From positions 62,001 through 126,000 of the forward strand of contig PXYT01000002.1 of NCBI GenBank assembly GCA_003023725.1: 64,000 bases of DNA. The letters run 5' to 3'. The notes under the pieces are model-generated. The model was not told the origin of the DNA and did not search any database. It saw nothing but the letters and a program-made list of their open reading frames with translations. The DNA comes from Sulfobacillus benefaciens. GTDB lineage: Bacteria; Bacillota; Sulfobacillia; Sulfobacillales; Sulfobacillaceae. Below, in pieces: positions 2,093 to 38,602 of the stretch; positions within the stretch are counted from its first letter, which is position 1; every line of letters starts with the position of its first letter. Made by a program: the position numbers and the translations under genes.

Positions 2093-3448
2093 TCATAATT
2101 GCAGCCAGTGCCGTACCGCTGACACGTTGGATGGGAAATACAAGTGCGCATACCCGGCTAAGACGTTTAGTTCCGCATAACCACCGAAGGATTCGCCGCG
2201 GCTCCCCTTAAGCCGATATGCTCTCGAAGCCTCCGCCCCCGCAAATTGAAGCTGAGAATAATGAAATTCGTGACCTCTAAATACGGACCCTGCCGGAAAG
2301 ACAATGCCGGATATCATGATGACGGTTCGGTAACCCACTGCCTGCACATGATTATGCATCACCACAGTGTGAGGAACAATACCTACCATCGAATAATGTT
2401 GTCCTTGGGTATTCACCAGTTCTTTCGCTAAGAACATGTACCCTCCGCATTCGGCCAAAGTTGGAAGTCCACCCGCAATCCGGTCGTAATAGGTTTGCAG
2501 CAACTCCCGGTGCTGGCTCAAGAAGGCGGCAAACTCTTCCGGAAAACCGCCTCCAAGATACAACGCGGTGGCATCCCGAGGAATATTCTCTTGTGCTAGA
2601 GGGCTGAAATAAACCAATCTTGCCCCTAATTCTTCCAATAACTCCAGGTTTTGGGCGTAGTAGAAATTGAAGGCTTTATCCGCAGCGATCGCAACGACGG
2701 GATGAGCATTTGAAATGCGGGGCACCTCCGGTTTTTTGGGAATATTCAAGGTAGGAGCATCCATAATCATTTTAATAATGCCGTCCAGATCGAGTTGAGA
2801 TGACAATTCGCTTCCCAGCTTCTCCACCATCCCCACGCTTTGATCATTCTCATCAGCGGGAAGAATACCCAGCTGCCGGTGTCCGACCGCTAAATCTTGG
2901 TGATAGGGTATGAATCCGTAACACGGGAGACCACATTCAGTCTCAATAACTGTTTTCAGAAGCTGGTAATGGCGTTCGGATTGGATCTTCGTGATGATTA
3001 CGCCTGTTAAGAGGTCCGGCGTGCTAAAATGACGAAATCCCAAAACTACGGCGGCAAGACTTCTTGCGCTGTGCTGCCCGTCGACTACTAAGAGAACGGG
3101 GGATCGCAACACTTGGGCGATGTGATATGTACTGGATTCATTGGATAAGGGATTGTGACCGTCGAAATATCCCATAACGCCTTCGATGATGGCAAGATCC
3201 GCTCCTATCATTCCTCTCGCAAACGTCCACAGGGTTTCGTTGCTGCTCCCCTGCATCCAGATGTCCAGATTTCGCCCAACTCGGCCCGTGGCGAGGCGGT
3301 AATAGCCGGGATCAATGTAATCCGGGCCGACCTTGAACCCCTGAACCTGATAACCACGTTGCCGAAAGGCGGCCATAATTCCCACGGAGGCGATAGTTTT
3401 GCCTTCGTCGCTCGCGGGTGCTGTAATCACTACTCGTGGAAACCGCAA
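2093..3448 (-). CDS. cbiA: Cobyrinate a,c-diamide synthase family amidotransferase (CbiA/CobB type)
   Basis: 451 aa, the usual family length. The enzyme class uses ATP and glutamine to amidate the a and c carboxylates of cobyrinate. The N-terminal P-loop-like ATP site ASDEGKT is at residues 12-18, followed by FKVGPDYIDPGYY (38-50). The C-terminal class I glutamine amidotransferase domain has LAECGG with nucleophile Cys334 and YAHLYFPS with catalytic His435. The start is TTG, 8 nt after AAGGAG. It lies 37 nt downstream of an SDR gene, so the two are probably co-transcribed. No other cobalamin genes and no recognisable B12 riboswitch are in the window, so the physiological substrate (cobyrinate, or a related corrinoid or tetrapyrrole) is inferred from the family only. 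Confidence 0.85.
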   Translation of the reverse strand: MRFPRVVITAPASDEGKTIASVGIMAAFRQRGYQVQGFKVGPDYIDPGYYRLATGRVGRNLDIWMQGSSNETLWTFARGMIGADLAIIEGVMGYFDGHNPLSNESSTYHIAQVLRSPVLLVVDGQHSARSLAAVVLGFRHFSTPDLLTGVIITKIQSERHYQLLKTVIETECGLPCYGFIPYHQDLAVGHRQLGILPADENDQSVGMVEKLGSELSSQLDLDGIIKMIMDAPTLNIPKKPEVPRISNAHPVVAIAADKAFNFYYAQNLELLEELGARLVYFSPLAQENIPRDATALYLGGGFPEEFAAFLSQHRELLQTYYDRIAGGLPTLAECGGYMFLAKELVNTQGQHYSMVGIVPHTVVMHNHVQAVGYRTVIMISGIVFPAGSVFRGHEFHYSQLQFAGAEASRAYRLKGSRGESFGGYAELNVLAGYAHLYFPSNVSAVRHWLQL

Positions 3449-3485
3449 ACCGAAATCTCCTTCTCACTCATCTCGTGGCTACTCT

Positions 3486-4181
3486 CTACTTCACCTGCAT
3501 TATAAATCCCGACGGGGGTCTCTCTTGGATTAACTGCCAGGCAGCGTCCGCTACTTCAGCCGGGTCAATCCACCTCTTTCCCGCACTCCGGCGGATTAAA
3601 CGGGTCTGTTGTTCCTCATTCAATGAATGGGCCCACCTGGTGGCCACCCATCCAGGCGACAGGACATAAATTCGCACACCAACCAGAGATTTTGCCAGAC
3701 TGGCGCTATAACCAATGATAGCCGCCTTGGCTGTGCCATACAGCGACGCCGAGTCCCCGGAGGCTCCCGTTAAAGCCTCATCCCATGCCACGTTAACAAT
3801 TATGCCATGATTTCGGACTAATGGAAGCACAGCCCGGCAACACTTGATTGCACCCGCCACATCAACTTCCCACAATTTCTGAAGTCTTGTCATGTATGGC
3901 AACGTGCGGGTTATGGGACTCAAAACATCTGCTCCGGCCAAATTCATCCACACATCATAATCCTCGGTGGATGCATCTCGGATTCTCCGCGCCATTTCTT
4001 GCTCATCCATACGCATGTCCAAAAGATTCTGTCCAGGTCCGGGATGCCTGGCAAATCCTATAACATCCGCTCCCTGAGCCGTGAAGAAGCTCAACACGGC
4101 TTGTCCGATGCCGCCATTCACGCCACTCACGCCGACACGCATGTCACTAAACATTCCTTTCGAATCGAAAAAATTAGACAC
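3486..4181 (-). CDS. Short-chain dehydrogenase/reductase (SDR), atypical active site
   Basis: Rossmann-fold SDR of about 231 aa. Numbered from the longer frame beginning at ATG 4208, the cofactor motif GVNGGIGQ is near residue 30, NLAGAD near 90, and the YxxxK pair is Tyr157/Lys161 in SLYGTAKAA. The usual catalytic Ser about 13 residues before Tyr is absent: the segment reads NVAWDEALTGAS. The substrate is unknown. I chose the GTG at 4181 because AAGGTG precedes it by 8 nt; the ATG at 4208 has only a weak SD. It lies directly upstream of cbiA on the same strand, suggesting a shared transcript and perhaps a related pathway. The long structured stretch upstream (4209-4769) may hold its leader. 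Confidence 0.75.
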   Translation of the reverse strand: MSNFFDSKGMFSDMRVGVSGVNGGIGQAVLSFFTAQGADVIGFARHPGPGQNLLDMRMDEQEMARRIRDASTEDYDVWMNLAGADVLSPITRTLPYMTRLQKLWEVDVAGAIKCCRAVLPLVRNHGIIVNVAWDEALTGASGDSASLYGTAKAAIIGYSASLAKSLVGVRIYVLSPGWVATRWAHSLNEEQQTRLIRRSAGKRWIDPAEVADAAWQLIQERPPSGFIMQVK

Positions 4182-7959: not shown

Positions 7960-8003
7960 TCCGTCAAACTTCTTGCGGATGCTTATGATACAACGAGTTA
8001 TGG

Positions 8004-8009
8004 TACAAT
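8004..8009 (+). promoter_or_regulatory. Extended -10 element upstream of otsA
   Basis: TACAAT preceded by TGG (TGn extended -10), 23 nt before the otsA start codon; the -35 is poor. The SD GAGAGGTGA follows. It may drive otsAB separately from murJ. Confidence 0.4.
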
Positions 8010-8032
8010 ATTACACAAGAGAGGTGACGATC

Positions 8033-9481
8033 ATGCCTATTGAGAAACTGATCGAGGCTCCTCTTGTTGTGGTTACGAATCGGGAGCCATACATCGATGA
8101 GCGTTCCGATCATGGAATTCGAACCGTGCAAAAAGCCGGCGGAGTCGTGTCAGCTTTGGACCCGCTTTTGCAGGAGATTGGGGGGCACTGGATCGCGTGG
8201 GGAAGCGGGAGCGCTGACGTTGAGGTTTCTCCCGGTGGAAAGCGCCAGGTGCCGCCAGAAAATCCTCGATACACGTTACACCGTATTATCTTGAATCAGG
8301 AAGAAATTCAGGGCTACTATGCCAAATATTCCAATCAAGGGCTATGGCCGCTGAGTCATATGTTAATTGAGCGTGCCCAGTTTTCGCGGCGTGCGTGGCA
8401 AGTTTACCGCAATGTCAATCAAAAATTTGCTAAACGCACCAGTTCCGTCAGTCCAGAAGGCGCGTGGATTTTTTCGCACGACTATCAGCTCGCCTTGCTT
8501 CCTTCTTTCGTACGCAAGTCCCGGCCCGACGTGGCCATCGCGCACTTCTGGCATATTCCCTGGCCCCCCTCGGCCATCTTCCATTTGTGCCCGCAACACC
8601 AGGAAATATTGCGAGGACTATTGGGAGCAGATGTTTTGGGATTTCAAAGCGATGTAGACGTGGATAACTTTATCAATACGGCAGAACGTACCCTGAAAGT
8701 CTCCGTCAACCGAGACAATCTAACCATTAATTGGCAGGGTCGAATAGTACACGTGAAATCTTTTCCTATTTCCGTTGATTTTGAGGCGATTCAAGAAATA
8801 GTTCAAAATCCCCGAATATCCCGGTGGGTGCGGGGAATAAGACGTCATATTGAAAGGCACGATCAAATACTGGGAATTTCAGTTGATCGCGCGGATTACA
8901 CCAAGGGCTTACTGCCCCGCCTTGAAGCCATAAAAGAATTTTACACATTATACCCTCAGTACCGAGAGCGTGTCACATACATACAGGTTGTCGTCCCGTC
9001 ACGAACGGAGGTTGCAGAATACCGGCGCCTCTATGAAAGAATTGCCAAAAAGACCCAAGAAATAAACAAGCAATTTCAGAAACCAAGGTGGATCCCTATT
9101 ATCACATTGCGTCACAGCATTGACCGGCCCAGGCTTATGGGTTTATTCCGCGCTGCAGACTTCGCCGTGGTCAGTTCTCTGGTAGACGGGATGAATCTAG
9201 TTTCCAAAGAATTCGTAGCGGCCCAAGTCGACAAACGGGGTGTGTTGTTGTTGAGCGAAACCACCGGCGCAGCACACGAACTGGAAAATGAAGCGTTCCC
9301 CATCAATCCGCTCGACCCGGAAGGATTCGCAAACACTTTGCATGAAGCCCTCTCCACGTCGGCCGACGAACGTGCTCTTCGTATTACACGCATGCGAGAG
9401 CATCTGCAAAAGCACACTATATATGACTGGATGGCGGATATCTTTGCTACATTAAAGGCGGCTGCTCAATCATATGTCTGA
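8033..9481 (+). CDS. otsA: Trehalose-6-phosphate synthase (GT20)
   Basis: 482 aa from ATG 8033, preceded by GAGAGGTGA; the longer frame from 7973 overlaps the promoter. GT20 enzymes transfer glucose from UDP- or ADP-glucose to glucose-6-phosphate. Motifs: KAGGVVSALDP near residues 34-44, SHDYQLALLP (148-157), HIPWPP (174-179), VDRADYTKG (284-292) and DGMNLVSKEF (385-394). The adjacent otsB overlaps its 3' end by 8 nt, supporting the trehalose assignment over the related glucosylglycerol-phosphate synthases. The product is a cytoplasmic compatible solute and stress protectant. Confidence 0.9.
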   Translation: MPIEKLIEAPLVVVTNREPYIDERSDHGIRTVQKAGGVVSALDPLLQEIGGHWIAWGSGSADVEVSPGGKRQVPPENPRYTLHRIILNQEEIQGYYAKYSNQGLWPLSHMLIERAQFSRRAWQVYRNVNQKFAKRTSSVSPEGAWIFSHDYQLALLPSFVRKSRPDVAIAHFWHIPWPPSAIFHLCPQHQEILRGLLGADVLGFQSDVDVDNFINTAERTLKVSVNRDNLTINWQGRIVHVKSFPISVDFEAIQEIVQNPRISRWVRGIRRHIERHDQILGISVDRADYTKGLLPRLEAIKEFYTLYPQYRERVTYIQVVVPSRTEVAEYRRLYERIAKKTQEINKQFQKPRWIPIITLRHSIDRPRLMGLFRAADFAVVSSLVDGMNLVSKEFVAAQVDKRGVLLLSETTGAAHELENEAFPINPLDPEGFANTLHEALSTSADERALRITRMREHLQKHTIYDWMADIFATLKAAAQSYV

Positions 9482-10298
9482 ACAGTTTCTCACATTGGCT
9501 ACCCTGGGTGCCTTGTCGCAACAGGTTCGTGCCCAAAGCTGGCTTTGGTTTTTAGATATAGACGGCACATTGCTTGATATTGCGCCCTCTCCGTCCGCGG
9601 TAGAAGTTCCCGATGACTTGTCGGTGTCACTAGATCGGTTAGCCGACAATCCGTGCCACCACGTCGCTTTGATCAGCGGACGCTCACTGGCTGACATTAG
9701 CCGTCTATTCCCCAGTCCCCTTTTAAGCAAAAGCGGAAACCATGGGGCAGAGTACTTTTGGAACCAGAAATCATGGTTGCACTCCTCGTCCCAGCGGTTT
9801 CTTGCTATCCGTCCTCAACTTTTGGAAGCCGTAGCTCCCCTCACTCAGCAGTTTCCCGGACTATTTATAGAGGACAAACGCTATTCAATCAGTGTGCATT
9901 ATCGCCATGTCAGTCCTTCACTGCACCCAACACTCGGCAACAGGATAAACACACTCTTGTCTTCCCTGAACGATGTCGTGATTTACCCGGCAAAATTGTG
10001 CTGGGAAATCCGCCCCAATCCGGGACCAACTAAGGGAGACGCGGTGCGAACCTTGTATGCTAAAATCTCGCCACAGCTTTTGTCCCCCATCTTTCCCATC
10101 ATTATCGGTGACGACCGTACTGACGAAGACGCGTTTGGAGCCATCAGTCCTGCTCTCACCATCCATGTAGGGGACGGCACGACCCAAGCCCGTTATCGAC
10201 TCAGTTCACCTCGTCATGTGCGGGAACTTGTGGCTGCAGTCAGTCGCGATCCTCATCTCGCTGGGAATGCGGATCATGCCCACGGAGATACTGTATGA
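9474..10298 (+). CDS. otsB: Trehalose-6-phosphate phosphatase
   Basis: 274 aa HAD-superfamily phosphatase. Motif I WFLDIDGTLLD has nucleophile Asp28 and Asp30; LISGRSLADI is motif II-like; GDDRTDEDAF is the C-terminal metal-binding motif. It dephosphorylates trehalose-6-phosphate made by OtsA, with which it overlaps by 8 nt (translational coupling likely). Its last 59 nt overlap the 3' end of the convergent methyltransferase/MTHFR gene, an unusual tail-to-tail overlap with no space for a separate terminator. Confidence 0.9.
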   Translation: MSEQFLTLATLGALSQQVRAQSWLWFLDIDGTLLDIAPSPSAVEVPDDLSVSLDRLADNPCHHVALISGRSLADISRLFPSPLLSKSGNHGAEYFWNQKSWLHSSSQRFLAIRPQLLEAVAPLTQQFPGLFIEDKRYSISVHYRHVSPSLHPTLGNRINTLLSSLNDVVIYPAKLCWEIRPNPGPTKGDAVRTLYAKISPQLLSPIFPIIIGDDRTDEDAFGAISPALTIHVGDGTTQARYRLSSPRHVRELVAAVSRDPHLAGNADHAHGDTV

Positions 10299-12132
10299 TC
10301 GGCAAAAGAGGTTCAACGCGATTAAAGGAGGGAACCAAATATACCCCTTGAATATACACCATGAGTTGCTCCACCAGCTGCAGAGCAAGGTCAATACCTA
10401 AGGCCGTTCCGTCTTGAATATTTTCAAACTGCCGAAGAATCTTTTGGCCAATAACGATACCGGGCACTTCGTTGTGCAAGTACATGGCCTGGCGATAGGA
10501 TACCAAAGGCATAACCCCAAGCAACAAAGGGACGGGAAGGGATCCTGCTTCCTCCAAAAACTGTTCTAACTGTTCGGCCTGATATACCGGTTGTGACATT
10601 ACAAAATGAGCTCCGGCATCGAGCTTTTGGCGCAGACGCCCCACTTCCTGAGTCCGGTCGGGAGCATTAGGACTCACCCCCACACCAATGTCAAAATTCG
10701 TATGGCCGCCGATTTTTTGGCCCAAAGCATCCTCGCCCCTGTTGAATGCCTGAAGCACTTTGACCAATCCTATCGAATTGATGTCGTACACAGCCGATGC
10801 ATGAGCATAGTCACCCAATCCCGGAGGGTCTCCGGTGAGAGCCAGCACGTTGCGAATGCCTAAAGCATGAGCCCCCAGCAAATCACTTTGCAAACCCATG
10901 AGGTTGCGATCCCGGGTCGTAAAGTGCAATATGGTCTGAATCGGCACCCGTTCCGAAGTGAGGCGTGCCGTCGCCAGCGCACTGAGTCTTACCCTGGCCA
11001 TGGGGCTGTCACCAATATTGATGGCATCCGCTCCGGCATCGGCCACCGTCTGCGCTGCTTCCAACAAGCGGTGAGGATTGACACCCCTAGGTGGATCGAG
11101 CTCCACGCTGACAATAAACCTGTTATGAAAGAATTGAGAGATACCCTGTTCCTGTGTCTCGCCGTGCCCACCATCCCCAGCCCCCCCTGAATCCGACATT
11201 TCATTCAATAGCGGTACTGACAGAAGAGAGAGATTGTGATGTAAGGCGGCATCGAGAGCCTGAATATGCTCCCAGTTCGTGCCACAGCATCCTCCGATAA
11301 CCTGGCATCCGGCAGCGCGCAAGGCGGGAGCAATCGTAGCCACATAACGAGGAGTTGCCGGATAGTGTACATGCCCGGCAACAAAACCAGGCTGTCCGGC
11401 ATTAGGATAGGCAGATAAGGGAATTGCCAACTCTTTTGCTTTGGGGGCCATGCGAATGATGGCGTCCAAGAGCGGAGCCGGGCCACTGCCACAATTGGCT
11501 CCAACCACGTCAGGGGGTCCACCCGGCAACGAGGCCATTGCTTCTATGGCCTGTTCGGGCGTGACTCCGTATAAGGTTGCCCCTTGCGGGGAAAAAGCAA
11601 AGGACACAAAAACAGGCAGATTGCTTTCCTCACGGATGGCTTGCACCGCGGCCTTCACTGTGCCCAGATCGGACATTGTTTCCACTATAAATCCATCAAC
11701 GCCTCCAGCCAGTAACCCTGCTACTGCCGTGCGAAAATAGTCGAGCGCTCTCTCATAGCCTACGGAAGGCACAACCCGTGAATCCACCGGTTGTGCAAGA
11801 GGACCAATGACTCCAATGATCCAGGCATCCTGACCAAAAATATCACGGGCATGCCGAGCGATTTGTGCGGCCCGGCGATTTAATTCCACCACATCCGCTT
11901 CAATTCCCAAAGAAGAAAGTTTGTGTCCGTTTGCGGAAAATGTGTGGGTTTCAATCAACCGGGCACCCGCTTCGAGATATTTCAGATGCAGATTCATTAA
12001 CACATCTGGCTGACGCAAGGGAACCAGGGGCAGAGCCACGGACTCCACCCCTTCATCCATTAAGGCAGTGCCGACCGCACCGTCTCCCAGAATCCATCCC
12101 TCTTCGTGCAATATCTCGCTTAAGCTTTTCAC
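10240..12132 (-). CDS. Bifunctional homocysteine S-methyltransferase / methylenetetrahydrofolate reductase
   Basis: 630 aa fusion. Residues 1-300 are a Zn-dependent homocysteine methyltransferase domain with ligands Cys214 (GANCGSG) and Cys282-Cys283 (GGCCGT). Residues about 335-610 are a MetF-type flavin TIM barrel (SVELDPPRG at 342-350, LALTGDPPG near 430-440) that makes methyl-THF. The two halves resemble Bacillus YitJ. No cobalamin domain is present, so the N-terminal half may use another methyl donor or pass methyl groups to the partner MetE-like proteins. The ATG overlaps the stop of the upstream core-MetE gene by 4 nt (ATGA), so it belongs to the SAM-riboswitch operon. Confidence 0.88.
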   Translation of the reverse strand: MKSLSEILHEEGWILGDGAVGTALMDEGVESVALPLVPLRQPDVLMNLHLKYLEAGARLIETHTFSANGHKLSSLGIEADVVELNRRAAQIARHARDIFGQDAWIIGVIGPLAQPVDSRVVPSVGYERALDYFRTAVAGLLAGGVDGFIVETMSDLGTVKAAVQAIREESNLPVFVSFAFSPQGATLYGVTPEQAIEAMASLPGGPPDVVGANCGSGPAPLLDAIIRMAPKAKELAIPLSAYPNAGQPGFVAGHVHYPATPRYVATIAPALRAAGCQVIGGCCGTNWEHIQALDAALHHNLSLLSVPLLNEMSDSGGAGDGGHGETQEQGISQFFHNRFIVSVELDPPRGVNPHRLLEAAQTVADAGADAINIGDSPMARVRLSALATARLTSERVPIQTILHFTTRDRNLMGLQSDLLGAHALGIRNVLALTGDPPGLGDYAHASAVYDINSIGLVKVLQAFNRGEDALGQKIGGHTNFDIGVGVSPNAPDRTQEVGRLRQKLDAGAHFVMSQPVYQAEQLEQFLEEAGSLPVPLLLGVMPLVSYRQAMYLHNEVPGIVIGQKILRQFENIQDGTALGIDLALQLVEQLMVYIQGVYLVPSFNRVEPLLPIIQYLRGHDPHSQRDEDRD

Positions 12133-13115
12133 TGCAAACCGTCCTCGTCGCGAATTTCTTCAACCGCCGTCATCATGACCCGTAGTTTTTGCTCGGCTTC
12201 GTCCCATGTTCGGGTCTTTAAACCGCAATCCGGGTCGATTAACAACTGATCTAGTGGAATAATTTCCAATGCCCGTCGAATTCCGGCTTTTACCTCGTCA
12301 ACCGACTCAATCCGGTGTGAATGAACATCCACAACCCCTAAAGCCAGTTCTTTTGACTTCGGCCAAGGATAGCGCGCTAGCAAATCCAATAACGCAAAAT
12401 GTTGATTGGCTGCTTCCAGATCCAGCTGGTCAACCGGCAGATCATATAGACCGGGCAATATCGTCTCAAAATCTCCATAACAAATATGGCTAATGGTTTT
12501 AGCCTGGAGACCTTGAGTTACTATGGCCATGGCCTCGATGGCCAGATCCAGTTCATCGGGCCGAGTTGAAATTGCCGGTTCATCAATTTGAATATACTTC
12601 GCACCGGCTTTTTCCAAGGCCACAGCTTCTTCATGGACCAATTGCGCCAAATCCATCACAAGAGAGCGCCGATCCGGATAATACGCATTAAAAGACCAGT
12701 CACAAATTGTGTAGGGACCAGTGAGCATACCCTTTACCGGATGAGACGTCAACCGCGAAGCTTTTTCCCAGGAAACCACAGTTAATCCCACTGAATCTCC
12801 CAGCGATACGACATTTTCCACTATGGGCTTCTTATAGTAACGGTTGCCATAAGAACGAACCGGCAACGATTCTGAGAACCCTTGCCAGTGCTCAGCGAAA
12901 TAAGCGACCATGTCGCCGCGTTCCATTTCGCCGTGAACAAAAATGTCAAGATTCAATGCTTCCTGCAAATTAATAACCTGGCGCGTCGCGTCTTCTTCGG
13001 ATTCGCGCAATTGTTCTGCCGATATTTGGCCGCGACGAAATTGCGTGCGCGCCGTGAGCAGTTTATTGGGTTTCGGGAAACTTCCCACACTGGTGGTTAA
13101 TAAATGTTTGGCCAT
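12129..13115 (-). CDS. Core-MetE-type methionine synthase (C-terminal catalytic domain only)
   Basis: 328 aa, matching only the catalytic half of cobalamin-independent methionine synthase (full MetE is about 750 aa). The zinc site looks complete: His210 and Cys212 in SHICYGDF, Glu234 in LDLEAAN and Cys297 in DPDCGLKTR. Opening GSFPKP and DIFVHGEMERGDM are typical of the family. It makes methionine from homocysteine; core forms lack the folate-binding N-terminal domain, so the methyl donor is uncertain. AAAGGGCGG precedes the ATG. It sits between the MetE-like paralogue and the MTHFR fusion in the SAM-riboswitch operon. Confidence 0.87.
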   Translation of the reverse strand: MAKHLLTTSVGSFPKPNKLLTARTQFRRGQISAEQLRESEEDATRQVINLQEALNLDIFVHGEMERGDMVAYFAEHWQGFSESLPVRSYGNRYYKKPIVENVVSLGDSVGLTVVSWEKASRLTSHPVKGMLTGPYTICDWSFNAYYPDRRSLVMDLAQLVHEEAVALEKAGAKYIQIDEPAISTRPDELDLAIEAMAIVTQGLQAKTISHICYGDFETILPGLYDLPVDQLDLEAANQHFALLDLLARYPWPKSKELALGVVDVHSHRIESVDEVKAGIRRALEIIPLDQLLIDPDCGLKTRTWDEAEQKLRVMMTAVEEIRDEDGLQ

Positions 13116-13137: not shown

Positions 13138-14106
13138 TTATGCGTTAATCAAAAACTTGGTGTCCCGGAGTAAACGGACCTTTTGCTCAGCCCGGTCAGG
13201 CGGCAAAAACTCCAGTCCACAACTCGGATGAATCCATGTTCTCTCATGACCTTGCCTGCGAAGGATTGGCTGCAAAAGTCGAGCCAAATGTTCGGGAGTT
13301 TCCATCCGAACGTTTCGGGCATCAATAACCCCCAGGCCCACGGCAATATCCAATTTGTCTGTAGCCAAAACATCCAGCACATGGGGATCGCTCACGGCAT
13401 CGCACGATATTCGTGAAAATGGCAGCTGCGACAGCGTGTCGAGCCACGGTGAAGATTCACCCCAGTAGAGCGCGATAGATTGCTCTATTTCCAAATCGGG
13501 GTCAATCAAAGCCTCATACGCTTGTCGAACCTGGGTACGTGACCAAGAGGACGATCGAACCAGGGAAGGCTCATCCCACTGCACTTCCACCACTCCAGTT
13601 CCCACCAAATGCCGGACGGTGAGCCGCATGACGTCGATCAAGTCTGCTATCAGAGCATCGGTGTCCCCGTAACTTGTGTCTTCCTGGAGGTCGAGAAAGG
13701 TAAAGAGTCCTGGTAAGGCCACCTTTATCGGCACTTGTGAACGGGATACAGCTTCTCGGCACCAGGCTGCCAAAGTTCCTCCCTGATACTGCAAGCGCCC
13801 CGTTATCACGGGATGCCTGACATAAAAATTATTGTCGAACAAACGAATCAGACCCGCACTGTGAACATTGTCGAGGTCGCGAACGATCGGGTCAAACAAA
13901 TCATACCACCGAATTTGACCGTCAGTGGTTCGGTCCAATTGCGTGTCATTCGCCAGCTCCAAAACGCGGTCTATCACCTGGCTATAAGTTTCAAAAAGCT
14001 GGCTTGGTGTCAGCAATCCCTTTTCAAAGCGCTGGATTGCCGACCGCACACTAGGCCCTGGGCCAGCCGGGATTTTCGGATATGATCCCATGACAGTCGT
14101 CTTCAT
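13138..14106 (-). CDS. MetE-like paralogue with altered zinc ligands
   Basis: 322 aa from ATG 14106; the longer frame to 14259 runs into the riboswitch and is not real. It aligns with the core-MetE downstream (opening VMGSYPK, then VEVQWDEPSLV and HPSCGLEF), but the HxC pair is Ile211/Leu213 and the Glu ligand is Cys235. Only Cys296 of the zinc set remains. It may be a divergent methyltransferase, a partner subunit of the adjacent core-MetE, or an enzyme with another metal site. First gene of the operon, directly downstream of the SAM-I riboswitch, so a sulfur/methionine role is likely. Confidence 0.8.
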   Translation of the reverse strand: MKTTVMGSYPKIPAGPGPSVRSAIQRFEKGLLTPSQLFETYSQVIDRVLELANDTQLDRTTDGQIRWYDLFDPIVRDLDNVHSAGLIRLFDNNFYVRHPVITGRLQYQGGTLAAWCREAVSRSQVPIKVALPGLFTFLDLQEDTSYGDTDALIADLIDVMRLTVRHLVGTGVVEVQWDEPSLVRSSSWSRTQVRQAYEALIDPDLEIEQSIALYWGESSPWLDTLSQLPFSRISCDAVSDPHVLDVLATDKLDIAVGLGVIDARNVRMETPEHLARLLQPILRRQGHERTWIHPSCGLEFLPPDRAEQKVRLLRDTKFLINA

Positions 14107-14217: not shown

Positions 14218-14357
14218 AAAAAAACGCCTACTGCGAGAAGAGGCGCATGCTCTTCTCATCTTAAAGAATACTCGAGTATTCTTCCGGAATTGGCACCCGC
14301 CTTGCAGGGGTTGCCGGGCTTCATCGGGCCAGTCCCTCTGCCACTCTGGATAAGAAG
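14218..14357 (-). promoter_or_regulatory. SAM-I (S-box) riboswitch with terminator
   Basis: Reading on the - strand, P1 is formed by 14357-14349 and 14260-14252 (9 bp with one G-U). The core AGAGGGACTGG...GATGAAGCCCGGCAACC is the S-box signature, and P4 is the palindromic helix at 14264-14283. A competing GAGAAGAG/CTCTTCTC helix and a terminator stem (14225-14229/14241-14245) followed by T7 (14224-14218) form the expression platform. SAM binding should terminate transcription of the methionine operon. Confidence 0.93.
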
Positions 14358-16180: not shown

Positions 16181-17338
16181 GTGTCCGCACACGAATTTCC
16201 CAACTGGCATCTGGAAAGTCTCACAGCGCACTCCGGGGTCGGCTACGATCCTGTTTATGGAGCTGTCAGCACACCCGTCTATCAAACCGTGACTTATCAA
16301 CATCCCGGCTCAGAATTAGGGCCTTACGATTACAGCCGAACGGAAAATCCAACGCGCCATGCCACCCAAGAAGCCATCAACCGTCTGGAAAAGGGGGCGG
16401 GAACCCTGCTATACAGCAGCGGCATGGCGGCTCTCACGGTTTTGGTCCAAACCCTGCAACAAGGCGATCACGTGTTGATTACGGAAGACGCGTATGGCGG
16501 CACTTACCGAATCATGGTCGATTTGTTTTCCAAATTCGGAGTCTCGTCAAGCATGGTAAACACGCGTGATCTCAATCAGGTCGAGGACCATCTAGGGCCG
16601 AGAACACGCCTGGTAATCGTGGAAACTCCCAGTAATCCTTTGTTGCGCATCAGTCCCTTGGCGGAACTGGCGGAACTGGTTCATGCCCACCACGCAGAAT
16701 TAGCGGTTGATAACACATTCATGACCGCCGTTCGTCAGCGCCCGTTGGAAATGGGAGCGGATTATTCCGTTTATAGCGCAACCAAATACCTGGCCGGCCA
16801 TAACGATGTGCTTGCCGGCGCCATTGTCTGTAAGGCACCGGAGCAATACCGCCGTTTAAATGACTTGACGAATGCCACCGGAAGTGTGCCGGGCCCATGG
16901 GATGCATGGCTTCTTCTTCGCGGACTGAAAACCCTGGCTATCCGAATGGATCGACAGGAAAATAATGCCCGTGCCCTGGCCCAGTTCCTTTCTACCCATG
17001 ACCGTGTCCGCTCGGTTTACTATCCCGAATTGGCCGAACCCAGCGTGAAGGCGGTTCATATGGAGCAGGCGTCGGGATATGGTGCCATGCTGTCATTTTT
17101 GCTAAAGGATCCTGACACTCATATTGCCCTGATGGATAGGCTAAAAGTGATCTTGCCCGCCGTCAGCCTAGGAGGGGTGGAATCGTTAATTACCCATCCC
17201 TACAATGAAACTCATAGGGAACTTCCGGAGCCGATGCGGCGCAAACTAGGAATCATTCCCGGACTTATGCGTTTGTCCGTGGGAATCGAACACATTGACG
17301 ATCTACTCAACGATTTGTCTGACGGGCTGCGTGACTAA
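16181..17338 (+). CDS. Cys/Met metabolism PLP-dependent enzyme (cystathionine synthase/lyase type)
   Basis: 385 aa, fold-type I PLP enzyme of the transsulfuration family. Motifs: YSRTENPTR (residues 51-59), SSGMAALTVL (79-88), VETPSNPLL (147-155) and SATKYLAGHND with the PLP lysine Lys202. GTG start at 16181 after GGAAAGGGCG. Cystathionine gamma-synthase, beta-lyase, gamma-lyase and O-acetylhomoserine sulfhydrylase cannot be told apart reliably by eye. A second family member follows 65 nt downstream, so the pair probably does successive transsulfuration steps. Confidence 0.87.
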   Translation: MSAHEFPNWHLESLTAHSGVGYDPVYGAVSTPVYQTVTYQHPGSELGPYDYSRTENPTRHATQEAINRLEKGAGTLLYSSGMAALTVLVQTLQQGDHVLITEDAYGGTYRIMVDLFSKFGVSSSMVNTRDLNQVEDHLGPRTRLVIVETPSNPLLRISPLAELAELVHAHHAELAVDNTFMTAVRQRPLEMGADYSVYSATKYLAGHNDVLAGAIVCKAPEQYRRLNDLTNATGSVPGPWDAWLLLRGLKTLAIRMDRQENNARALAQFLSTHDRVRSVYYPELAEPSVKAVHMEQASGYGAMLSFLLKDPDTHIALMDRLKVILPAVSLGGVESLITHPYNETHRELPEPMRRKLGIIPGLMRLSVGIEHIDDLLNDLSDGLRD

Positions 17339-17403
17339 GGGCCTCGGTGACCGACACAATGCCGACACAATATGGAGTAAATTCATTCAAGGAGTGACCC
17401 ACA

Positions 17404-18552
17404 ATTACCGAAAAACGCACACAATTTGTGCATACCGGTTATGAAATGGATGGGGAAACCCACGCCATAACACCGCCGATTTTCCGTGCAACCACATATC
17501 ATCAGGCTAATCCCTGGGATCCGCCCGCGTATGATTATGCACGTTCGGGAAACCCTACCCGCCATGCCTTTGAAGCCGCCATGGCGGAATTGGAACACGG
17601 AGCCATGGGGTTGGCCTTTGCGTCCGGTATGGCGGCCCTGACCGCAGCGTTCATGTTGTTATCGCAAGGTGACCACCTTATCGTCACCCGCGATTGCCAG
17701 GGAGGTACGCAGAGAGTCTTACGGGGCATTTTTAGCCGCTTTGGCATCCAGGTTAGCTATGTCGACACGGAAGACATGGAGGCTTTAGAGCGCGCCCTGA
17801 CCCCACACACGCGCGCCATCCTTATCGAAAACTTCAGTAACCCCTTTTTACATGTCACGGACATCCCGAAAGTGAGTCAGTGGGCCCATGCACACCATTT
17901 ATGGGTCATGGTGGACAACACCTTCATTACCCCCTATTTACAAAACCCCCTAACACAGGGGGCTGACCTCGTTATTCATTCCGCCACCAAAATGATTGGA
18001 GGCCATTCCGACATCACGGCCGGGATCGCCGTGGCCAAGGAAGCCGAGCTTGGCCAGCGTTTATATTTCATCCAAAATGCTTGCGGAGCCGTACTGTCAC
18101 CGGATGAGTCCTATATGAGCCTGCGTGGCCTCCATACTTTACCAATCCGTATGGACCGGGCCCAGCAAACAGCTGCAAATCTTGCCGAGGTACTACAACA
18201 GCATCCCCGCGTGGAACAGGTATACTATCCGGGGATTCCCACGCACCCCGGACACGATATTGCTCAAAGGACCATGCGAGGTTTTGGACAAATGCTAACC
18301 ATTCGTCTCAAAGAAGCATTATGGGTACCAGATGTGGCGCGCCATCTCCATTTCGCACGAGTTGGCGCAGGCTTTGGCGGAACCGAAACCATCATTTCGT
18401 TGCCTGAACTCCACTGCCACGCAGCTCTGACCATGGAGGAGCGGTTTGAGCGAAATATTACTCCGGACGTCATCCGCATTTCAGTGGGGTTGGAATCAGC
18501 AACCGATCTTATTGGCGACATCGTCCAAGCTCTCGATCAGGCCGGATTGTAG
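17404..18552 (+). CDS. Cys/Met metabolism PLP-dependent enzyme (second paralogue), ATT start
   Basis: 382 aa counting from ATT at 17404. The N-terminus ITEKRTQFVHTGYEMD matches the family opening (TxxVHxG). TGA at 17395-17397 closes the frame upstream, AAGGAG (17389-17394) lies 9 nt before the ATT, and there is no ATG, GTG or TTG until GTG 17428, which lacks an SD and would cut the VHTG motif. Catalytic features: YARSGNPTRH, ASGMAALTA, ENFSNPF and SATKMIGGHSD with PLP lysine Lys196. Likely a cystathionine lyase or sulfhydrylase, partner of the enzyme just upstream. Its stop codon lies inside the terminator stem. Confidence 0.85.
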   Translation: MTEKRTQFVHTGYEMDGETHAITPPIFRATTYHQANPWDPPAYDYARSGNPTRHAFEAAMAELEHGAMGLAFASGMAALTAAFMLLSQGDHLIVTRDCQGGTQRVLRGIFSRFGIQVSYVDTEDMEALERALTPHTRAILIENFSNPFLHVTDIPKVSQWAHAHHLWVMVDNTFITPYLQNPLTQGADLVIHSATKMIGGHSDITAGIAVAKEAELGQRLYFIQNACGAVLSPDESYMSLRGLHTLPIRMDRAQQTAANLAEVLQQHPRVEQVYYPGIPTHPGHDIAQRTMRGFGQMLTIRLKEALWVPDVARHLHFARVGAGFGGTETIISLPELHCHAALTMEERFERNITPDVIRISVGLESATDLIGDIVQALDQAGL

Positions 18553-36484: not shown

Positions 36485-37204
36485 TTACTGACTTTGGCCT
36501 AACCATTGCTGTAAGCCGTCCAGTACCCCTAATGCACCAGGGTAGTTTGAACGCATAATCCACTCCGGCAAACAGTTTCTGACCGATGCATCACCGTTGG
36601 CAACGAGAACCCCCGGATAATGACTCGACAACATGTCTCCGTCATTTTCAGCGTTTCCGGCCACGAAGCAGTTCTGCGTTTTGACTCCGACCCGGCGCAG
36701 AATATATTGCAACGCCCGGCTCTTTAACGCGGTGCACGGAAGAATATCCAGCCGTCCTTCATTCGGGTACCATAAGACGCGCGCCGACAAATGATTGCGG
36801 GCAAGGTAAGATTTGACCACAGACACCAAAGCGGGATCGTCAAGTTCAAAAGCCACACGCCAGTGCGAACTCCTGCCGCGGTAAACGACTCCGGGAACAT
36901 TGCTCAAGGCCGTGCGAAGACGTCTAGGAGACCAATAACGCCGCTGTTCAAAGGCCCAGAATTCGTCGGCCTCCAAATTCGGCCCCCAAAAAATATCGGC
37001 TCCGACATCTGTCGCAATGGCGAGAGGACCAGGAAATCCATAACGGCTAATTAATGAGCAGGCATTGTTCAGCGTCCGCCCCGTAAGATAAATCACTCCC
37101 AGTTCGGGGCGCGCCACCAAATAGTCACGCACTTCCTGTTCTCCTCCGTGACCGATTAAGGTTCCATCTATATCAGTAGCCAACACCCGCCTGATGGCGG
37201 CCAC
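36485..37204 (-). CDS. Sucrose-6-phosphate phosphatase-like HAD hydrolase
   Basis: 239 aa from GTG 37204, 9 nt after GAGGAGG. HAD-IIB motifs: ATDIDGTLIGHGG (nucleophile Asp and Asp+2), YLTGRTL (motif II Thr), a cap with SSHWRVAFEL and LDILPCTALKSRALQYIL (Lys), and AGNAENDGDML (metal motif). This pattern fits sucrose-phosphate phosphatase (S6PP). It overlaps the preceding sucrose-phosphate synthase-like gene by 32 nt, supporting the second step of sucrose synthesis. Another sugar phosphate is possible. Confidence 0.78.
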   Translation of the reverse strand: MAAIRRVLATDIDGTLIGHGGEQEVRDYLVARPELGVIYLTGRTLNNACSLISRYGFPGPLAIATDVGADIFWGPNLEADEFWAFEQRRYWSPRRLRTALSNVPGVVYRGRSSHWRVAFELDDPALVSVVKSYLARNHLSARVLWYPNEGRLDILPCTALKSRALQYILRRVGVKTQNCFVAGNAENDGDMLSSHYPGVLVANGDASVRNCLPEWIMRSNYPGALGVLDGLQQWLGQSQ

Positions 37205-38399
37205 TGGACGCCACCTCCTCATACACTGCATGTAAGCGTTGTGCCATATGATTCACCGTGTGATGCCGTTGAATCATCTCTTGTCCATTTATTCCCATCT
37301 GTCTGCTACGATTGGAAGTTTGCCACAACTCTAACGCGTTTTGCCACACTTGGTCAATACGTGTATGATCAATCACAATACCGGTAAAATTCGGCTTAAT
37401 CCAATCCTCAACACCCGGAACATTTGTTCCGACAACGGCGCATCCTGAGGCCATCGCCTCCACCACCGCCATACCCAACGTGGGTCCCTGGTTTGGAGCT
37501 ACCAACACGGCTGCGGAGCCCATATACATGGCTACTGCATGATGCGGCATCGGGCCCAGAAACCGTACGTGAGACCCCAGCTCGTTGGCCCAAGCCCGTA
37601 ATGCAGGGTCCCTCGGCATTCCCTCCGATACCTCACCCGAACTTCCCCCGATAATGACAAGAACCAGATCCGGGGGCAATTGAGAACGACTCATAACTTG
37701 CAGAAGTTCTTGAATACCCCGGCCCCGGTTAAGACGACCCACGTAAAGAATGGGCGGTTTACTTAAATTCAATCCCCGCATCAAGGGTCCCGCGTCACGA
37801 ACAAAGAAGTTGGTAATATCAACCCCCGGGGGAACGACATAAATGGGTACTTCGGATGCGATTTGGTGGATCATTTCGCTTTCTTTCAGATAAGGGACAA
37901 TCACACCATGGGCTTGTTCCAATAATCGGCTTTCCGTTTCAAGGCGGATGGGAGACACCTCTTCTCCAGGTCTCACAACCCACTGTCCCATTTTATAAGG
38001 AGAGTGTATCCAAGGAATTTGCAATTCCTGAGCGATACGAGACGCGATCATCCCGGAAATCCAGAAGTGGCTGTGAATGACATAATATTCCCGTTCTTGG
38101 TCACGAATCCAGTTTAAGGCCTGTTCGGTAATCTCTTCCTGATTGGCATACCAGTCCTCGTCGGACACAATTCGACCTTCCCATCCGCTCAGACGGATAA
38201 CCTGTCCCAAATGACCAAACGAATATCTTTCGGGTAAATGAGATTGCTGCCGCAATGTAATAACATCAACGGCGTAACCCAAGTGCTGCAGGTTACGGCC
38301 CATTTGCCGCACAACGACCTGTTGCCCCCCAGTTTCCCCTCCATCCAGAGGGCTGAGCGGATCGGCTCTTAAAGAAATTTGCAGCACGCGTTTCATCAT
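37173..38399 (-). CDS. Sucrose-phosphate synthase-like glycosyltransferase (GT4)
   Basis: 408 aa. It opens ISLRADPLSPLDGGETGGQQVVVRQMGRNL, with the Gly-Gly-Gln N-terminal donor-site motif of sucrose(-phosphate) synthases; HSHFWISG, PYKMGQW, LYVGRLNRGRGIQELL and the EX7E region GPTLGMAVVEAMASGCAVVGTNVPG follow. Likely makes sucrose-6-phosphate from a nucleotide glucose and fructose-6-phosphate; other GT4 activities are possible. GGAGGGCGG precedes the double ATG at 38399. Directly downstream of a c-di-AMP riboswitch and followed by the matching phosphatase gene. Confidence 0.8.
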   Translation of the reverse strand: MMKRVLQISLRADPLSPLDGGETGGQQVVVRQMGRNLQHLGYAVDVITLRQQSHLPERYSFGHLGQVIRLSGWEGRIVSDEDWYANQEEITEQALNWIRDQEREYYVIHSHFWISGMIASRIAQELQIPWIHSPYKMGQWVVRPGEEVSPIRLETESRLLEQAHGVIVPYLKESEMIHQIASEVPIYVVPPGVDITNFFVRDAGPLMRGLNLSKPPILYVGRLNRGRGIQELLQVMSRSQLPPDLVLVIIGGSSGEVSEGMPRDPALRAWANELGSHVRFLGPMPHHAVAMYMGSAAVLVAPNQGPTLGMAVVEAMASGCAVVGTNVPGVEDWIKPNFTGIVIDHTRIDQVWQNALELWQTSNRSRQMGINGQEMIQRHHTVNHMAQRLHAVYEEVASSGRHQAGVGY

Positions 38400-38424: not shown

Positions 38425-38587
38425 AAAAAACCCGGATTTCCCGGGGGAAGGAATCAATTTAGCAATAAACCTTGAGCCCCCTTACGCCTACGAAGTTAGC
38501 TGACGGGTTCGGGCTGCGAGCGTGCCCGTTGCAAAGCAATTCACCCCAAAATCTGTGGGTCCTCCGCTTCCTTAAGAATTCGGCGTT
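38425..38587 (-). promoter_or_regulatory. c-di-AMP (ydaO/yuaA) riboswitch with terminator
   Basis: Reading on the - strand, P1 is formed by AACGCCG (38587-38581) and GGCGT (38488-38484). Between them are the class signatures: GAATTCTTAAGGAAGCGG, GGACCCACAGATTTTGGGGTG, and CAGCCCGAACCCGTCAGCTA. After about 40 nt a CCCGG/CCGGG terminator hairpin (38445-38431) with T6 (38430-38425) follows. This is an off-switch architecture: c-di-AMP stops transcription of the sucrose genes. Confidence 0.92.
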
Positions 38588-38602
38588 ATCAAGGATACTT
38601 TA

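Follow-up and report, generated by a model that had tools for sequence, protein, structure and literature searches.

A MetE-type barrel protein with a dead zinc site in Sulfobacillus benefaciens, very probably the N-terminal-barrel subunit of a split cobalamin-independent methionine synthase

In most bacteria, the methionine-making enzyme MetE is one long protein. The window analysed here, which is the whole stretch of 64,000 nucleotides taken from a Sulfobacillus benefaciens contig, holds two adjacent genes for shorter MetE-type proteins, and the zinc site of the upstream product appears to be lost. What such a protein does beside an intact neighbour is the question raised by this locus. The original prediction regarded both products as core-MetE proteins under common control by SAM, and proposed that the upstream one could be a subunit, a methyl-donor adaptor or an enzyme with another chemistry. 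The features concerned are collected in Table 1.

Table 1. Features of the putative methionine operon, in window coordinates
Feature	Coordinates	Strand	Evidence
Predicted N-subunit of split MetE, non-catalytic barrel, zinc site dead	13138..14106	-	PF08267, zinc columns, tree, model
Predicted catalytic subunit of split MetE, zinc/homocysteine barrel	12129..13115	-	PF01717, NF003317, intact residues
Bifunctional homocysteine S-methyltransferase / methylenetetrahydrofolate reductase (MTHFR)	10240..12132	-	PF02574 + PF02219, NF006396
SAM riboswitch (S-box leader), upstream of operon	14253..14356	-	Rfam RF00162, 85.4 bits

The upstream reading frame is confirmed as that of a real MetE-barrel homologue of 322 aa, which starts with the ATG at 14106 and is the first gene after the riboswitch. 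Its product and that of the downstream neighbour (328 aa, MetE-type) are full-length homologues, with 24% identity over 318 alignment columns in a two-sequence BLASTP comparison (E 3e-19). The two frames are separated by 22 bp and the third, which encodes the fusion protein of 630 aa, overlaps the second by 4 bp, so that the three genes are likely to share one transcript. Around the operon, several other genes were named by eye. Trehalose-6-phosphate synthase-like and phosphatase-like ORFs (7973-10298, plus strand) converge on it, and two neighbouring ORFs resembling PLP enzymes of Cys/Met metabolism lie upstream on the other strand (16181-18552, plus strand). Further away, a c-di-AMP riboswitch (38470-38595, minus strand; 93.6 bits) precedes an apparent glycosyltransferase gene (37173-38399) and a HAD-type phosphatase-like ORF (36485-37231).

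The zinc positions were read from an alignment of 120 rows, in which the columns are anchored on H641, C643, E665 and C726 of E. coli MetE (L033). The downstream protein has the complete His-Cys-Glu-Cys set that had been attributed to it, as His210, Cys212, Glu234 and Cys297. At the same positions the upstream protein has Ala212, Tyr214, Asp236 and Cys296, in agreement with the BLASTP alignment to its neighbour; the His-Cys-Glu/Asp-Cys ligand set of core methionine synthases is absent from the N-subunit itself. The claim that three ligands have been lost holds in so far as the His and the first Cys are gone and Glu is replaced by Asp, with the last Cys retained here. The residues originally named for the first three positions (Ile, Leu and Cys) were nonetheless misread, as they immediately precede the true ones.

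This pattern is shared by related proteins. Among 45 split N-subunits, counted after leaving out L088 (not an N-subunit), the first three zinc columns contain Ala in 37, Tyr in 41 and Asp in all 45, and the fourth is occupied by Ser (19), Cys (9), Ala (7), Thr (5) or Gly (4), with one gap. The N-terminal barrels of 15 full-length MetEs have Gln (10), Ala (3) or Thr (1), followed by Tyr (14), Asp (14) and Cys (12). The catalytic rows retain His-Cys-Glu-Cys, save for one Ala and one gap among the 43 split subunits and one gapped row among the 15 MetEs. The same disabled site, with Phe230, Tyr232, Asp253 and a retained Cys309, was reported for the N-barrel of Thermotoga maritima MetE by Pejchal and Ludwig (2004; PMC539065), who explain it by a duplication of the gene after which this copy ceased to bind zinc and homocysteine. 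Since full-length MetE N-barrels present the same disabled pattern, the loss of the zinc site seems to be old and common to ordinary MetE.

With regard to the identity of the barrel, several comparisons point in the same direction. In a quick tree of 81 of the 120 rows, with SH-aLRT as its only support value, a branch with SH-aLRT 100 divides the rows into the 40 catalytic ones and the 41 N rows, which include the window protein but need not form a clade; the groups labelled archaeal in this tree (splitN_arch and splitC_arch) contain one Bacillota locus, L069. The profile of 26 Sulfobacillia N-subunits scores 422 against 16 archaeal N-subunits and 305 against the 43 split catalytic subunits, and 193 against MetE N-barrels versus 152 against MetE C-barrels. 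Three MetE rows with insertions or truncation (L102-L104) were left out of this comparison, of the pterin counts given below and of a test of 12 columns that separate the N-terminal from the catalytic barrels of MetE; the latter is a weak discriminator, as the window protein is N-type in four columns, C-type in two and neither in six. Of the 22 full-length MetE entries listed for the AlphaFold2 model of the N-subunit (mean pLDDT 93.0), 21 align with it along its length through their N-terminal barrel (Z 31.8-34.2) and one, 4qqu, through its C-barrel. As the single-barrel methionine synthase 3rpd reaches a Z of 33.5, against 34.2 for the best N-barrel, the modelled fold supports the N-barrel identity but does not decide between the two barrels.

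Current family models name the N-subunit poorly. Its Pfam scores differ by a narrow margin, 72.9 bits for PF08267 and 71.7 for PF01717, the latter giving 272 bits with the catalytic subunit. The best NCBIfam match of the N-subunit is NF003317 (methionine synthase; cut-off 406) with 122.2 bits, the catalytic subunit lying slightly under the cut-off with 389.1; NF006349 (PRK08575; cut-off 322) gives 108.5 bits, and none of the NCBIfam models listed reaches its cut-off on the N-subunit. In their description of split MetE, Price, Deutschbauer and Arkin (2021; PMC7857596) recognise the N-subunit by its size and Pfam scores. The window protein is shorter than their limit of 400 aa and scores higher with PF08267 than with PF01717, on a gathering cut-off of 27 for PF08267 where Price et al. 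applied the trusted cut-off of an older model. Their catalytic subunits score at least 200 bits by phmmer to Pyrococcus furiosus PF1269, for which the NF003317 score of the window protein serves here as a proxy only.

The two genes also travel together. The N-subunit has orthologues across the Sulfobacillia and the archaea, and out of 46 named loci 45 contain an N-subunit and 43 contain both genes, in every case with N before C; the three loci short of a partner are L067 (at a contig end), L070 (without C) and L088 (a different protein). A strong N match occurs in 32 of 61 genomes, a set made up of the window's own genome and 60 relatives; it adjoins a C match in 31 of the 32 and lies at a contig end in the remaining one. 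A sample of 149 genomes from the phylum gave a PF08267 match in 16. The best match is part of an open frame longer than 750 aa in 14 of these; the other two are the window's own genome and G145, with a 212-aa frame with stops. The N-subunit of Metallosphaera (L087) passes NF006349 with 437.6 bits, over the cut-off of 322.

Two side observations emerged from these loci. At L070 (4001-4993, an Armatimonadetes MAG), a homologue of the split-MetE-type N-subunit has no adjoining catalytic subunit and lies beside a gene that looks, by eye, like a transketolase. In one genus of the same class, L102, L103 and L104 (genomes G068, G154 and G115) contain MetE-type frames of up to 1048 aa in which PF08267 is matched in two separated pieces.

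The agreement of the tree, the profile comparison, the fold match and the N-then-C gene order identifies the pair as a split MetE. The reading of the upstream protein as a core-MetE paralogue is right as to its MetE-barrel homology but not as to its history, as the tree and the zinc columns place it with the MetE N-barrels instead of the catalytic ones. The downstream protein, in turn, is better named the catalytic subunit of a split MetE than a second core MetE. The upstream gene thus very probably encodes the N-terminal barrel of a cobalamin-independent methionine synthase made as two polypeptides, in which this barrel would be paired with the zinc subunit and a methyl pterin would be held in the cleft. 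The N-subunit would pair face to face with the catalytic subunit, which is expected to bind zinc and homocysteine. As in fused MetE, a methylated pterin would occupy the cleft that the two barrels form, and would hand its methyl group directly to homocysteine. In such a complex, the N-subunit would have no need for zinc and could serve to close the cleft and provide a few pterin contacts through Arg88 and Arg21. Of the roles originally proposed, that of a subunit or methyl-donor adaptor is essentially right, and that of an enzyme with another chemistry finds no support. Pejchal and Ludwig object to the term 'folate-binding domain' for the N-barrel of MetE, on the ground that it is the catalytic barrel that makes most of the contacts with folate (PMC539065), which makes 'non-catalytic barrel subunit' the safer name.

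The regulation and the metabolic context of the pair are consistent with this assignment. The SAM riboswitch, which exceeds the gathering score of 44.4 by a wide measure, supports the proposed co-regulation of the two genes by SAM, and would allow SAM to shut the operon off. A scan of 16 loci found it ahead of the orthologue in 14, the exceptions being L068 and L070; at L049 and L050 its distance from the split MetE genes is about 1.3 kb. At L050, from a Sulfobacillus acidophilus MAG, an ORF resembling, by eye, a PLP enzyme of Cys/Met metabolism (2763-3950) is found between the riboswitch and these genes. The two PF01717 matches of the genome are both in this operon, and so are its single PF02574 and PF02219 matches, both of which fall in the third gene (NF006396, 604.6 bits; cut-off 453). 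The methyl donor would most likely be 5-methyl-THF from the MTHFR half of this gene, and the homocysteine-methyltransferase half could methylate homocysteine from another donor, as a second route.

Searches for another methionine synthase in the genome, an assembly that is 98.38% complete, detected neither MetH nor fused MetE. PF02965 has no match in it; the domain is also absent from all 61 relatives, including those without split MetE, and hence shows no complementarity with it. By itself PF02965 is a weak test for MetH, as Thermotoga maritima gave no match either and presumably has a MetH without this domain. PF02607, the corrinoid cap domain, did match in Thermotoga maritima and has no match in this genome. 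The only PF00809 match lies in a 287-aa frame that we take to be, most likely, dihydropteroate synthase, in which case the cell probably makes folate; one B12-binding domain scores above the cut-off. MesX (PF08908) was not matched in the genome, an uninformative absence given that 0 of 14 control genomes matched. The possibility that methionine is really made by MetH, whole or split, was rejected on the lack of PF02965 and PF02607 matches and on the probable identity of the PF00809 frame. The split MetE pair is the only methionine synthase found by the PF01717, PF02965 and PF02607 searches and, given the lone MTHFR in its operon and the lack of any detected MetH or fused MetE, it is most likely the 5-methyl-THF:homocysteine methyltransferase of the cell.

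The residues of the pterin pocket add a further aspect. In fused MetE, Lys104, His111 and Glu583 are present in 12 of 12 rows. All 45 split N-subunits have Arg for Lys104 and Tyr for His111, and the split catalytic subunits have Thr (41 of 43), Val (1) or Ser (1) for Glu583, although these counts come from related sequences and do not represent independent events. The window proteins follow the split pattern, with Arg88 at the Lys104 position, Tyr95 at the His111 position and Thr184 of the catalytic subunit at the Glu583 position; Arg21 of the N-subunit is at the position of the conserved Lys20 of E. coli MetE. Other residues are preserved: Trp539, His672 and the homocysteine residues in 43 of 43 split catalytic subunits, and Asp467 as Asp in 37 and as Glu in 6. 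The equivalents of Trp539, Asp467 and Arg493 are retained in all 27 bacterial catalytic subunits, whereas Arg493, which contacts the folate glutamate tail, is found in none of the 16 archaeal ones.

Taken at the level of sequence, these differences suggest that split and fused MetE hold the pterin differently. In MetE, the pterin N3 is bound by Glu583, and His111 has been put forward as a possible proton donor, the donor being described as still unidentified in 2004 (PMC539065). As both residues are replaced, another route to the pterin is possible, and with Thr184 in place of Glu583 the binding of 5-methyl-THF by the window's pair cannot be assumed. A tentative proposal, which we consider somewhat less likely to be right than wrong, is that split MetE is not merely MetE cut in two but has a different, coupled cleft signature, by which the methyl pterin might be recognised and activated in another way, perhaps by a mechanism that fitted archaeal pterins and that bacteria later applied to folate; the latter part is suggested by the distribution of Arg493 between bacterial and archaeal catalytic subunits. 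Should the altered pocket be functional, the activation of methyl-folate by MetE could be studied with split MetE as its natural counterpart.

The replacement of Glu583 by Thr also bears on the alternative that survives best, although its probability is small: the downstream protein could be a stand-alone core methionine synthase of the MesA-D type, using a methyl-corrinoid or another donor, with the paralogue as an accessory or regulatory protein. The catalytic subunit does resemble core synthases, and a B12-binding domain is encoded in the genome. This proposal is opposed by the adjacency of the partner in 43 of 43 loci with both genes, by the basic residue at the pterin-contact position (Arg88, 45 of 45), by the Trp539, Asp467 and Arg493 equivalents of the bacterial catalytic subunits, by the lack of PF02607 in the genome and by the MTHFR encoded within the same operon. 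A stand-alone core MetE next to an unrelated accessory protein was also considered, and rejected in view of the conserved pairing and the tree.

Even less probable is a recruitment of the paralogue to sulfur metabolism as a methyltransferase that uses another acceptor or another metal. The N-subunit family does show strict conservation at many residues and has an invariant motif of its own around FDNNFY, as an independent enzyme might. This motif, however, aligns with the stretch of the MetE N-barrel that holds Lys104 and His111, no catalytic ligand set is left (Ala, Tyr and Asp are followed by a fourth residue that varies), and the protein is paired with the catalytic subunit wherever this could be checked, except at L070.

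Pseudogene-like substitution rates, which had been named as grounds for giving up a real role, are not what the comparisons yield. By the NG86 method, dN/dS of the N-subunit gene is 0.080, 0.072 and 0.076 against loci L043, L044 and L046, and that of the catalytic subunit gene is 0.047 and 0.050 against L043 and L044; with dS of 1.4-2.7, near saturation, these ratios are rough yet far from neutral, and the L045 comparison is saturated. A decaying duplicate of the downstream gene, for which the three altered zinc positions might speak, can be dismissed as a pseudogene on this purifying selection and on the orthologues across Sulfobacillia and archaea, in which the altered residues are themselves conserved and the frame is stop-free in all 32 strong matches in relatives.

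The apparent oddity of a zinc-less MetE paralogue beside an intact one is thus best read as a two-subunit methionine synthase, and not as new chemistry. The arrangement is already known: it is a further example of the split MetE that Price et al. describe mainly from archaea, with methyl-pterin donors predicted, and for which they give Sulfobacillus sp. hq2 as a bacterial case, the two parts being adjacent (PMC7857596). Literature searches on split MetE, Sulfobacillus methionine synthase and PF1268/PF1269, the only topics by which the pocket signature was covered, returned no further relevant paper. The split MetE of Pyrococcus furiosus (PF1268/PF1269), which forms a complex according to other work cited by Price et al., likewise consists of two adjacent genes for an N-barrel and a zinc subunit and is the sole methionine synthase (PMC7857596). 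The window's version differs in being bacterial, in its SAM riboswitch and adjoining MTHFR fusion gene and, relative to archaeal split MetE in general, in the Arg493 equivalent. To NCBIfam PRK08575 (NF006348-NF006350), the window N-subunit is a distant relative, far below the NF006349 cut-off. The core methionine synthases MesA-D resemble the window's catalytic subunit in their single barrel, similar length and zinc ligands, but are described as independent of an N-barrel partner (MesD acting with MesX) and of 5-methyl-THF (PMC7857596), whereas the window's protein has its partner next to it; in annotations, catalytic subunits of this kind ought not to be labelled stand-alone core MetE. With fused MetE, as seen in the T. 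maritima structure (PMC539065), the pair shares both barrels, the dead N-barrel zinc site with its Tyr, Asp and Cys, and the intact zinc and homocysteine residues of the catalytic barrel, from which it departs in being made of two polypeptides and in having Arg, Tyr and Thr where fused MetE has Lys104, His111 and Glu583.
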